NCBI GenBank assembly: GCA_947378235.1
Contig: CANCJE010000007.1
Coordinates: forward strand, 1 to 45,031
DNA: 45,031 nucleotides
Direction: 5' to 3'
Source: Caulobacteraceae bacterium
GTDB lineage: Bacteria; Pseudomonadota; Alphaproteobacteria; Caulobacterales; Caulobacteraceae
The position numbers were made by a program, and so were the translations under genes. Below the pieces are notes generated by a model that was not told the origin of the DNA, made no database searches, and saw nothing but the letters and a program-made list of their open reading frames with translations. Shown in pieces: positions 4,633 through 8,273 of the stretch (within the stretch, counting starts at the first letter, position 1; the number at the start of each line of letters is the position of its first letter).

Positions 4633-4661
4633 TTGCTGAAATCTCGAAGATTCGCTAGAAG
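4633..4661 (+). promoter_or_regulatory. Candidate leuA promoter (Caulobacter housekeeping type)
   Basis: TTGCTGA at 4633-4639 and GCTAGAAG at 4654-4661 are separated by 14 bases. This fits the recalled Caulobacter consensus TTGACGS, 10-14 bases, GCTANAWC, with seven of eight positions in the downstream box. The predicted transcription start is about 4667-4669, essentially on the ATG of the upstream ORF at 4668. A GATTC (GANTC, the CcrM methylation site class) lies at 4649-4653 inside the spacer. Confidence 0.55.
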
Positions 4662-4667
4662 AGCGTC

Positions 4668-4766
4668 ATGAATATGCGTCTTCACATGACTGGACAGGCT
4701 GCTTCGGCAATGTTGTACCCACTCTTGGGTGGGGTCCTAGGGCTTAGCTGCCCCTGGGCGTTCTGA
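4668..4766 (+). CDS. Putative leuA leader peptide (uORF, probably leaderless)
   Basis: A 32-codon ORF between the candidate promoter and leuA. The C-terminal half is rich in leucine: reading LYPLLGGVLGLSCPWAF then TGA, with five Leu codons in the last 17 (TTG, CTC, TTG, CTA, CTT; six in all counting codon 5). The predicted transcription start coincides with its ATG, so it may be translated as a leaderless mRNA, a common mode in Caulobacter; a GAAGAG lies just upstream as an alternative ribosome site if transcription starts earlier. The CCCCTG near its end can pair with CAGGGG at about 4794, giving a structure the translating ribosome would disturb. No U-tract terminator is seen, so the mechanism (Rho-dependent or translational) is inference. 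Confidence 0.5.
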   Translation: MNMRLHMTGQAASAMLYPLLGGVLGLSCPWAF

Positions 4767-4850
4767 GGCGCGTACCTAACGCGGCCGGACGTGCAGGGGG
4801 TGAAAGACAAAACCCTAAACCGTCCATGACCAACGCCAAGAGCAATTCAC

Positions 4851-6437
4851 ATGACCTCTTCTATCGATAATACCGCCGCAGCCGCTGCTAAGGCGCGCGA
4901 AAATGTCATCATCTTTGACACCACCATGCGCGACGGCGAGCAATCGCCCGGCGCCTCCATGAGCCTGGATGAAAAGCTCGAACTGGCCAAGATTTTGGAA
5001 GAGATGGGGGTCGATGTCATCGAGGCCGGTTTCCCCATCGCCTCCAATGGCGACTTCGAAGCGGTTCGCGAGATCGCCAAGATCGTCAAGACCAGCACCA
5101 TAGCGGGCCTGTGCCGCGCCCATCAGGTGGATATTGACCGTTGCGCCGAGGCTCTCAAGCCTGCCGCCCGTGGCCGCATCCATGTGGTGATTGCCACTAG
5201 CGACCTGCATATGAAGCACAAGCTCCAGATGGAACCTGAACAGGTGCTGGAAACCATCACCCGCTCGGTCGCCCATGCCCGCAATCTGCGCGACGATGTT
5301 GAATGGTCCGCTGAAGACGCGACCCGCAGCGACCGCCAGTTCCTGCGCCGCGCTGTCGAGGCCGCCATCCGGGCCGGTGCCACCACGATCAATCTGCCTG
5401 ATACGGTCGGCTATACCTATCCGTCTGAATATGCCGACCTGTTTGGTTGGATGACCCAGAATGTCGAGGGCGCGGACCGGGTGATCTTCTCGACCCACTG
5501 TCATAACGACCTGGGTCTGGCCGTGGCCAACTCTCTGGCCGGGGTTCAGGGCGGGGCGCGTCAGGTGGAATGTGCCATCAATGGCCTTGGCGAGCGGGCC
5601 GGTAATGCGGCGCTGGAAGAGATCGTCATGGCCTTGAAGGTGCGGGCCGACCGTCTGCCCTTCCAGACCCGCATCGACAGCACCCACATCACCCGCGCCA
5701 GCCGCTATGTCTCGGCCATCACCGGCTTTGCGGTCCAGTACAATAAGGCCATCGTCGGCAAGAACGCCTTCGCCCACGAAAGCGGCATCCATCAGGATGG
5801 CATGCTCAAGAACCGCGAGACCTACGAGATCATGACCCCGGAATCGGTCGGTCAGGCCCCCTCGACCCTGGTCATGGGCAAACATTCCGGCAGCCATGCC
5901 TTCCGCGCCAAGCTGAAGGATTTGGGCTATGAGCTGGGCCAGAATGCTCTGAAGGAGGCCTTTGGCCGCTTCAAGGACTTGGCTGATCGCAAAAAGCACG
6001 TCTATGACGACGATATTATTGCGCTGGTCGATGATGCCTTGGCGCGCGGCGGAGAGCGTATCCGCGTCACCCATCTGCGGGTCATTGCGGGCACCGAAGG
6101 CCAATCGGCTGACCTGACCTTGGAAATTGACGGCATTGAAAAGAAGGCGACCTCAACCGGTGACGGCCCCGTGGACGCGGTGTTCAACGCCATACGCGAG
6201 ATCGTGCCTCACGAGGCAGCGCTTCGCCTGTTCCAGGTTCATGCTGTGACCGAAGGCACCGATGCACAGGCTCAGGTCTCCGTGCGTCTGGAAGAGGATG
6301 GCCGCATCGCGACCGGTCAGGCAGCAGACACCGACACCATGACCGCTTCGGCTAAGGCCTATGTCAACGCGCTGAACAACCTGATGGCGCGCAAGCAAAA
6401 GTCAGCACCCGAGCCCCTCGTCGCGGGTCAGTTCTAA
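4851..6437 (+). CDS. leuA: 2-isopropylmalate synthase
   Basis: Condenses acetyl-CoA with 2-oxoisovalerate to give 2-isopropylmalate, the first committed step of leucine synthesis. The 528-residue product has the HMGL-like TIM barrel: DTTMRDGEQSPGASM with R27/D28, the metal-binding HCHND (216-220), NGLGERAGNAALEE (244-257), then the C-terminal allosteric domain (about 390-500) that senses leucine. The length is that of full-length feedback-regulated LeuA, not of the short homologues. ATG 4851 is preceded by AAGAG; an ATG at 4826 is in another frame and ends at 4870. It is preceded by a leader ORF and followed 63 bases later by two transporter genes in the same direction. Confidence 0.95.
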   Translation: MTSSIDNTAAAAAKARENVIIFDTTMRDGEQSPGASMSLDEKLELAKILEEMGVDVIEAGFPIASNGDFEAVREIAKIVKTSTIAGLCRAHQVDIDRCAEALKPAARGRIHVVIATSDLHMKHKLQMEPEQVLETITRSVAHARNLRDDVEWSAEDATRSDRQFLRRAVEAAIRAGATTINLPDTVGYTYPSEYADLFGWMTQNVEGADRVIFSTHCHNDLGLAVANSLAGVQGGARQVECAINGLGERAGNAALEEIVMALKVRADRLPFQTRIDSTHITRASRYVSAITGFAVQYNKAIVGKNAFAHESGIHQDGMLKNRETYEIMTPESVGQAPSTLVMGKHSGSHAFRAKLKDLGYELGQNALKEAFGRFKDLADRKKHVYDDDIIALVDDALARGGERIRVTHLRVIAGTEGQSADLTLEIDGIEKKATSTGDGPVDAVFNAIREIVPHEAALRLFQVHAVTEGTDAQAQVSVRLEEDGRIATGQAADTDTMTASAKAYVNALNNLMARKQKSAPEPLVAGQF

Positions 6438-6500
6438 ACCCATGCCTCATTGTCCATCTCGCGCTGGGTGTGGCTCGGCGCGAGACGAGGGCAAGGCTGC

Positions 6501-7388
6501 ATGTTGATCTGGATCCCGATCTCTGTGGGCGCCGCCGTCATGCAGGTGGCGCGCAATGCGGTTCAGCGTGATCTGTTGACCCAAACAGGGCCGTGGGCGG
6601 CGTCGCTCGTTCGGTTTCTGTTTGGGGTGCCCTTCACCCTACTGTTCGTGTTGATCGCCAAGATGATCACGCCTCAGGCCCATGGAACGCTCAGCCTTCA
6701 TCTGCTGGCGATCTGTAGTCTCGGGGCCCTGACCCAGATCGTAGCGCAGGCGGCTTTGCTGGTCTGTATGGAGCGGTCCAGCTTTGCCATTGGCTCAGCC
6801 TTCTTTCAGACCTCGTTGCCCTTTACGGCATTGGTCGGGGCGGTCTTTTTGCAAGATCCCTTAAGACCCTTGGCCTGGTTCGGCATTGTCATCGTCACCG
6901 CAGGTCTTGCCGTTCTGTCTTGGCCTAAACGCAAAGAGGACCAACTTCGGGACTGGAGCCCGATCTTGCTGGGCCTGACCTCCGGGGCCTTCACCGCCTT
7001 TTCAGCCAATGCCTTTCGTCAGGGCGGGCTGCTGTTCGAGCCCCATCATGCGGTCTATTCGGCGCTTTTTTGCCTGCTTATTGTTCAGACGGTTCAGAGC
7101 CTTGTTCTGGGCGTGATCTTGGGGCTAACCGACCGCGCGTCCCTGCGTGCCGCTTTTATGTCTTTGAGATCGGCCATAGGATCGGGGTTCGGCAGTTCCG
7201 CTGCCTCAGGCCTTTGGTTTGTCGCCTATACCTTGGTTCCAGCCGCCCTCGCCCGCGCTGTTGGGGTCGTCGAAATGCCGCTCGCCGCCATCACTGGCCG
7301 TCGGGTTTTCGCTGAGAGATTGACCCTCATGCAGATCATGGCCGGTGTGGTCACGGCGGCAGGCGTGGTTCTGGCAGCGGTGGGTTAG
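6501..7388 (+). CDS. EamA-family (DMT) transporter, first of a tandem pair
   Basis: A 295-residue, about ten-helix inner-membrane carrier of the drug/metabolite transporter superfamily, built from two EamA halves. The frame opens upstream at a TTG (6450), but ATG 6501 matches the start of the downstream paralogue (MLxWIP) and is chosen. It shares long blocks with that paralogue, for example GPWAASLVRFLFG, MITPQAHG, RSSFAIG, LPFTALVG, RDWSP, NAFRQGG and AVGVVEMPLAA, so the pair arose by duplication. The substrate is unknown; many EamA proteins export amino acids or metabolites, and the position after leuA makes a branched-chain-related substrate worth considering, but that is inference. Confidence 0.83.
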   Translation: MLIWIPISVGAAVMQVARNAVQRDLLTQTGPWAASLVRFLFGVPFTLLFVLIAKMITPQAHGTLSLHLLAICSLGALTQIVAQAALLVCMERSSFAIGSAFFQTSLPFTALVGAVFLQDPLRPLAWFGIVIVTAGLAVLSWPKRKEDQLRDWSPILLGLTSGAFTAFSANAFRQGGLLFEPHHAVYSALFCLLIVQTVQSLVLGVILGLTDRASLRAAFMSLRSAIGSGFGSSAASGLWFVAYTLVPAALARAVGVVEMPLAAITGRRVFAERLTLMQIMAGVVTAAGVVLAAVG

Positions 7389-7391
7389 GTT

Positions 7392-8273
7392 ATGTTGTGG
7401 ATTCCCCTGACCTTAGCGGCGACAGTTTTGCAGGTATCGCGCAATGCCTTGCAGCGCGGTCTATTGCCTGTGGCGGGACCCTGGGGCGCGACCTTGGTGC
7501 GGTTCCTGTTCGGATTGCCCTTTACGCTGGCCTTCATTGCCGTGGCCAAGCTGATGACGCCTCAGGCTCATGGCCACTTCAGTGCCTATTTCTTCACGGC
7601 CTGCACGATCGGGGCCGTGGCGCAGATGGGCGCGACGGCAGCGCTTCTGGTGTCGATGCAGCGGTCTAGCTTCGCGATCGGCACGGCCTTTCAACAAAGC
7701 TCTCTGCCCTTTACCGCTCTGGTCGGCATATTTGTGTTTCACGATCCGATCAGCCCCGTGGCTTGGATAGGACTGTTCATTGCGACCGCCGGACTGATTC
7801 ACCTGTCCTGGCCCCGCCGTATGGAAGGCGTTCGCGACTGGAGCCCAGCTCTGCTCGGCCTGACCGCAGGAGCCTGTTTTGCCCTAGGAGCCAATGCCTT
7901 TCGCCAAGGCGGACTGGCCTTTGATCCGCATCATATTGTCTATTCGGCCCTGGTAACGGTGGCGGTGGTTCAAACGATCCAGACCGCCGTCCTGATTGCT
8001 GGCCTCACGATCCTCGATCCTAAGGCGCTCAGGGCCGCCATTGGTGCGTGGAAGTCCTCGTTGGGCGCTGGATTTTTTGGGGCAGGGGCCTCAGCCCTCT
8101 GGTTCGTGGCCTTGACCATGAGCCCGGCAGGGCCGGTTCGCGCCGTCGGGGTTGTCGAGATGCCGGTCGCGGCCCTGATGGGGCGCAGGCTATTTGCTGA
8201 GCGTTTGAGCCTCGCTCAGATCGTTGCGGGATTAATCACGGCCCTTGGTGTGGTTTTAGCAGCCATTGGATAG
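7392..8273 (+). CDS. EamA-family (DMT) transporter, second of a tandem pair
   Basis: A 293-residue paralogue of the preceding gene, starting three bases after its stop, so the two are surely cotranscribed and probably translationally coupled. Two EamA repeats and about ten hydrophobic segments are visible; the conserved VEMPVAALMGRRLFAERL block lies near the end of the second half, as in the first gene. Over the full length more than half of the residues look identical by eye. Paired DMT proteins can work as heterodimers (known for small multidrug resistance members) or have separate substrates; nothing here decides. A 260-base gap with no obvious terminator separates it from mreB. Confidence 0.83.
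   Translation: MLWIPLTLAATVLQVSRNALQRGLLPVAGPWGATLVRFLFGLPFTLAFIAVAKLMTPQAHGHFSAYFFTACTIGAVAQMGATAALLVSMQRSSFAIGTAFQQSSLPFTALVGIFVFHDPISPVAWIGLFIATAGLIHLSWPRRMEGVRDWSPALLGLTAGACFALGANAFRQGGLAFDPHHIVYSALVTVAVVQTIQTAVLIAGLTILDPKALRAAIGAWKSSLGAGFFGAGASALWFVALTMSPAGPVRAVGVVEMPVAALMGRRLFAERLSLAQIVAGLITALGVVLAAIG

Follow-up and report, generated by a model that had tools for sequence, protein, structure and literature searches.

In translational attenuation of the ermC type, the stalling of a ribosome on an upstream ORF (uORF) unmasks a sequestered downstream ribosome-binding site. The leuA gene of actinobacteria is preceded by the LEU element, described by Seliverstov et al. (2005, PMC1262725) as a uORF with Leu codons and two RNA features, a base stem in which these codons pair with the leuA SD and a pseudoknot within that stem. 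A protein ligand has been proposed for this element, and the same paper cites mutation work on actinobacterial leuA as inconsistent with classical attenuation (PMC1262725). With respect to leaderless leader ORFs, 375 leaderless mRNAs have been described in Caulobacter (PMC4117421), and the leaderless trpL of Sinorhizobium meliloti is translated (PMC10117765).

The leader ORF and its occurrence upstream of leuA

The window analysed here is a stretch of 45,031 nucleotides from a member of the Caulobacteraceae (contig CANCJE010000007.1). The putatively regulated gene, leuA, encodes 2-isopropylmalate synthase (NCBIfam NF002087, 844 bits versus a cut-off of 729) and is located at 4851-6437 on the + strand, as are all of the leader features described below. 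A membrane protein gene with a VTT domain (PF09335; 3715-4584) lies 5′ of the leader on the same strand, and two neighbouring genes, seemingly a tandem pair, for transporters of the EamA family are found directly 3′ of leuA (6450-8273; Pfam).

A reading of this DNA from its sequence only had described a Leu-rich uORF of 32 codons, with five Leu among its last 17 codons and the ending CPWAF. All of these are present in the ORF at 4668-4766, which is translated in silico as MNMRLHMTGQAASAMLYPLLGGVLGLSCPWAF. It is preceded by the -35-like hexamer TTGCTG (4633-4638), 17 nt, and then GC-TAGAAG. Since the -10-like hexamer TAGAAG (4656-4661, within GCTAGAAG) ends 6 nt upstream of the ATG, transcription is predicted to start at A4668. 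In 29 of 36 uORFs from Caulobacteraceae that have just one ATG in frame, 6-7 nt separate the end of the -10 hexamer from that ATG, and TTGc is kept at about -35 from the uORF ATG in this family; the spacing of 6-7 nt was not seen in copies outside Caulobacteraceae. It supports the earlier suggestion of a leaderless start, and the uORF mRNA of Caulobacteraceae is accordingly described here as probably leaderless.

Comparison of the leuA-upstream regions of relatives revealed a short Leu-rich ORF at the same place in nearly all Caulobacteraceae loci for which upstream DNA could be compared, examples being MCRERDNLLLLALGLSRPWASV (Caulobacter vibrioides), MNVARQLLSLRLITPWAL, and MTPMNASLLLLLSLTSPWTL; both the uORF and its richness in Leu are conserved. 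The alphaproteobacterial survey set consisted of 153 distinct copies, 105 of which were left after dereplication. Among the latter, 48-50% of the eight codons preceding a fixed Leu codon encode Leu when read in frame, against 1-7% when read out of frame; the share of CUU is 37-47% among those leader Leu codons and 3-5% in leuA genes. From the in-frame Leu bias we infer that the leader ORF is translated, and the frame-specific enrichment of Leu and CUU is as it should be for a device that senses charged tRNA-Leu. The fixed codon itself, proposed to be the last sensing codon, is CUU at 4743-4745 in the window and in all 52 rows of the class-wide covariance-model alignment; because the regex of the 153-copy survey demanded CUU, invariance is claimed from that alignment only, and it is broken at least by a Phaeobacter leader (L204 480-570). 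This leader has CUA at the fixed position and a compensated helix, CCUCUGAGCG/CGCUCAGAGG.

Covariance models, one trained on Caulobacteraceae and then one class-wide, were used to search for the element. It was matched in 113 of 385 genomes of the class, with one match each, and all 41 matches in a phylum sample fall in Alphaproteobacteria. No further copy above noise was found in the window's own genome. Leaving aside four weak own-genome matches, leuA is located directly downstream in each of the 87 loci fetched by the models. The element is upstream in 59 of 80 leuA loci picked by protein similarity (E <= 0.01), many of which had also helped train the covariance model, and the loci lacking it belong mainly to Pelagibacteraceae and relatives of Magnetospirillum. 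In a Caulobacteraceae genus with no matches, 5/5 genomes tested also lacked this leuA. By these searches, the predicted element is widespread in Alphaproteobacteria, directly before leuA. The comparisons support the proposal that a translated, Leu-codon-rich leader ORF would control leuA. The uORF belongs to a widespread alphaproteobacterial element and is no peculiarity of Caulobacter.

In two of the 87 fetched loci (L154 and L161), the same leader stands before a non-orthologous leuA of the yeast/actinobacterial type; the enzyme is thus of another type, and the leader appears to have been either retained or transferred. On a Sphingomonas plasmid, the leader of a yeast-type leuA (L209 432-531) contains the uORF MIAALLLRSLRLIRP, with the stop UAG within an altered helix. 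The leuA leader on pSymB of Sinorhizobium meliloti (L210 336-420) ends with LLLLGLIRGCRVR; it has a different helix sequence at the same offset and is a weak model match (E 0.03). Against Rfam 15, the window had no match at gathering cut-offs, nor did five relatives at E <= 1, and no description of the alphaproteobacterial element was found in the literature examined on structured RNAs and attenuators, which covers earlier surveys incompletely.

Helix P1 and the stop codon within it

The end of the uORF forms one strand of a helix, P1, in which CCCCUGGGCG (4751-4760), encoding the P-W-A end, pairs with CGUGCAGGGG (4790-4799) over 10 positions, with one mismatch in the window (4757 with 4793). 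The complementarity of CCCCTG and CAGGGG noted previously (4751-4756 versus 4794-4799) is therefore genuine as part of this helix, but at 6 bp it had been drawn too short. Between the strands, CGCGU (4769-4773) pairs with ACGCG (4779-4783), as seen in the sequence and the MFE fold, and this GC-rich inner hairpin is, judged by eye, present in relatives too. The window leader folded alone gave an uninformative z of -1.45. A hairpin before P1, GGGGCUUAGCCGCCCC, was considered and rejected; by eye, it is good in many Caulobacter copies and the upstream G run is missing in others.

Both strands of P1 are defined by covariation. In the class-wide alignment of 52 sequences, compensatory two-sided changes occur at 8 of the 11 P1 pairs, and the number of two-sided change cells is 34, compared with 9.1 +- 2.5 in shuffles (none of 500 reaching 34) and far lower values in slid controls; this alignment had itself been fitted to the model, and a fairer picture comes from the slid control and from the first MAFFT alignment, in which 5 of 11 P1 pairs covary. 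The helix always begins 5 nt past the fixed Leu codon, and RNA structure thus overlaps the proposed stalling site. With the -10 spacing and the in-frame Leu content, the covariation of P1 makes the element much more than a coincidence.

The uORF stop is found within the P1 strand CCCCUGAGCG in 95 of the 153 copies (UGA 81, UAG 9, UAA 5), with UGG (54) or CGG (4) at this position in the remainder. The partner strand usually tracks the stop codon, reading UCAGGGG, CUAGGGG or UUAGGGG. Caulobacterales mostly have UGG here, and some CGG; with UGG, the peptide continues as PWA plus a few residues. The CPWAF ending is conserved as a helix strand and not as a peptide, W giving way to a stop or Arg elsewhere. 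Since UGG is exchanged for UGA, UAG, UAA or CGG with the helix retained, CPWAF is not a functional peptide motif; by this comparison, the tail is a by-product of the helix, a case of RNA conservation that arose where the stop became UGG.

Proposed control of leuA and the alternatives considered

P1 is followed by an untranslated spacer (4800-4850) with no U-tract. Near its end is CCAAGAG (4836-4842), the SD-like region of leuA (AAGAG, 4838-4842), for which duplex prediction gives as candidate partner CUCUUGG (4722-4728), a segment that includes the Leu codons CTC TTG (4722-4727). An ATG at 4826, out of frame, opens a 14-codon ORF across the leuA start (4826-4870).

Complementarity between the Leu-codon run and the leuA initiation region was assessed by species permutation, giving z -6.7 for all leaders (n=104) and z -6.4 outside Caulobacteraceae (n=77); control segments ranged from -1.8 to 0.1 over both sets and from -0.2 to -1.4 outside Caulobacteraceae. 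Two instances are UGCUCCUUAUA/AAUAAGGAGCC (L188) and ACUUAGGUG/CACCUAAGU (L052). Within Caulobacteraceae, pairing of the Leu run with the SD falls short of significance (z -1.5, n=27) and one control segment is better (z -2.4); the pairing in the window is equalled by 6% of shuffles. In leaders from outside Caulobacteraceae, the modelled opening of the SD changed by +0.063 when the nucleotides under a ribosome stalled at the fixed CUU were masked and by -0.001 when the loop was masked instead (p 6e-6); with the ribosome placed at the stop codon, the modelled opening is about as large. The masked stalled ribosome gives no clear modelled opening in Caulobacteraceae, and in the window the SD is predicted to become slightly less open upon stalling (0.57 to 0.47). 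Outside Caulobacteraceae, the pairing of the Leu run with the leuA ribosome-binding region suggests translational control. Pairing of the loop with the spacer, as in a pseudoknot, gave z -2.7 outside Caulobacteraceae and no signal within the family. A pseudoknot or a 3:4 alternative pairing can be drawn in many Caulobacteraceae and is weak against species permutation; we regard it as conceivable and nothing further. Since several of the tests share overlapping data, the moderate p values for the spacer C excess and for loop/spacer or alternative pairing are not to be relied on.

We propose that the element is a leucine-sensing leader-peptide attenuator of leuA, and give this reading, sensing and translational unmasking taken jointly and with reserve for Caulobacteraceae, a probability of roughly 0.6. 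Sensing of leucine by the uORF is in itself very likely, and we infer strongly that leucine starvation is what operates the device. Transcription would begin at or beside the first base (A) of the uORF start codon, and the Leu-rich uORF would be translated by ribosomes. With leucine in supply they would finish and leave, whereupon P1 would re-form and the Leu-codon run would mask the leuA ribosome-binding region by pairing. In a shortage of leucine, a ribosome would be held at the Leu codons, chiefly the fixed CUU, with its footprint reaching the first strand of P1; both P1 and the Leu-run/SD pairing would be kept open, and leuA would be translated. The unmasking step is included because of the complementarity in other Alphaproteobacteria. 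As the main output it has somewhat better than even odds across the class, and lower ones in Caulobacteraceae.

The terminator scan of the window detected nothing terminator-like with a U-tract, and at least five T within 8 nt after P1 are found in 0/27 Caulobacteraceae and 2.6% of the others, so that the earlier remark on a missing U-tract terminator extends to the whole family of leaders. This is the chief difficulty for classical attenuation with an intrinsic terminator, of the trp/ilvB type. The leader peptide is rich in the pathway's own amino acid, as such attenuation would have it, and in many Caulobacteraceae the 3′ side of P1 can be drawn paired with the spacer instead, to the exclusion of P1, but this alternative pairing is weak by permutation (p 0.03 overall and 0.13 in Caulobacteraceae alone, to be read with the caution given above). 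The window scan and the family-wide scarcity of T runs rule out an intrinsic terminator, and we consider the classical type highly improbable. Because that terminator is absent, the mechanism would be either Rho-dependent or translational, much as had been supposed. In Rho-dependent attenuation, the C-rich spacer (4800-4850), a possible Rho loading region, would load Rho once the uORF ribosome has left, stopping transcription before leuA, and a ribosome stalled at the Leu codons, along with the structures that this allows, would prevent it. Along with the lack of an intrinsic terminator, about 85 nt of untranslated RNA separate the uORF stop from leuA in the window, and the spacer has a C minus G excess of 0.23 in Caulobacteraceae, positive in 97%. 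The leuA coding sequence, however, is close behind, and among the other Alphaproteobacteria with the element the excess is just 0.05, with 65% of them positive. Rho is therefore not the common denominator, and a C excess confined to Caulobacteraceae rules it out as a mechanism shared by all carriers. We judge Rho-dependent attenuation rather unlikely; within Caulobacteraceae, Rho termination in the spacer may replace or supplement unmasking.

Two further explanations were considered. The RNA might bind a regulatory protein or small molecule and have an incidental uORF, in line with the published proposal for the LEU element of actinobacteria. The helix is very conserved, and S. coelicolor leuA leader mutations had effects at odds with classical attenuation, as cited in PMC1262725. 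On the other hand, the helix sequence itself shifts by compensation, and the bias to in-frame Leu and rare CUU, together with the fixed frame and stop position, shows selection on translation, which leaves a ligand-binding RNA improbable. Nascent-peptide arrest of the TnaC/SecM kind at the PWA ending, which is kept in most Caulobacteraceae, is the least probable of all; most Alphaproteobacteria, and some Caulobacteraceae too, have a stop codon in place of W, others have Arg, and the helix is compensated. We have ruled out PWAF as an arrest peptide, since the tail follows changes in the helix and in many copies gives way to a stop codon.

Comparison with known leaders

The proposed attenuator is most similar to the actinobacterial LEU element (PMC1262725), with which it shares a uORF with a Leu-codon run before leuA, structured RNA, and the lack of a terminator. 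Four actinobacterial leuA leaders possess a Leu run and then a helix at the alphaproteobacterial offset, and two of these (L205 and L206) have CUUCUUAGCUGCC in common with alphaproteobacterial copies. In 35 kb searched, an alphaproteobacterial covariance model gave weak matches to two leaders, from Microbacterium (E 0.0016) and from Nonomuraea (E 0.0021), and none to those of Nocardia and Tsukamurella. The base stem of the LEU element would correspond to the Leu-run/SD pairing, at z -6.4 (n=77) outside Caulobacteraceae and z -1.5 (n=27) within, and its pseudoknot to the loop/spacer pairing, with z -2.7 and no signal, respectively. The helices differ in sequence, being CCCCUGAGCG/CGCUCAGGGG in Alphaproteobacteria and CCGCGACGAG/CUCGUCGCGG in actinobacteria. 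Also unlike the LEU element, the alphaproteobacterial leaders have the stop codon within the helix, precede two types of leuA and, in Caulobacteraceae, have a uORF predicted to be leaderless. We conclude that the leaders of the two groups work alike; they may also be homologous.

More tentatively, and at somewhat less than even odds, we would see here one ancient leucine-sensing RNA design before leuA in Alphaproteobacteria and Actinobacteria, serving two leuA types that are not orthologous; its Leu codons would be the masking strand, its stop would lie inside the helix, and in Caulobacteraceae it would be leaderless. If the proposed control is right, leucine synthesis across much of a well-studied bacterial class is under an element missing from Rfam, and the puzzling LEU element of actinobacteria is linked to a second phylum and given a testable mechanism. 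Caulobacter would then allow the stalling of ribosomes to be studied on a leader ORF that is leaderless, and the covarying stop codon within the helix offers a direct experimental handle.

The transcription attenuators of E. coli trp and leu and of C. crescentus ilvBN (PMC4117421) likewise place, directly before a biosynthetic gene, a leader peptide in which the regulatory amino acid is abundant. The leuA leader has no U-tract terminator and, in place of a terminator/antiterminator pair, a single helix that holds the stop. Another alphaproteobacterial attenuator, rnTrpL/peTrpL of Sinorhizobium meliloti (PMC7298713, PMC10117765), has a leader ORF that is leaderless by Ribo-seq, as is predicted here. 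It differs in responding to tryptophan upstream of trpE, and in having an intrinsic terminator, none being detected in the leuA leader, and a trans-acting sRNA. Relative to translational attenuators of the ermC type, the proposed signal is charged tRNA-Leu and not an antibiotic, and the Leu codons would themselves form the masking strand.
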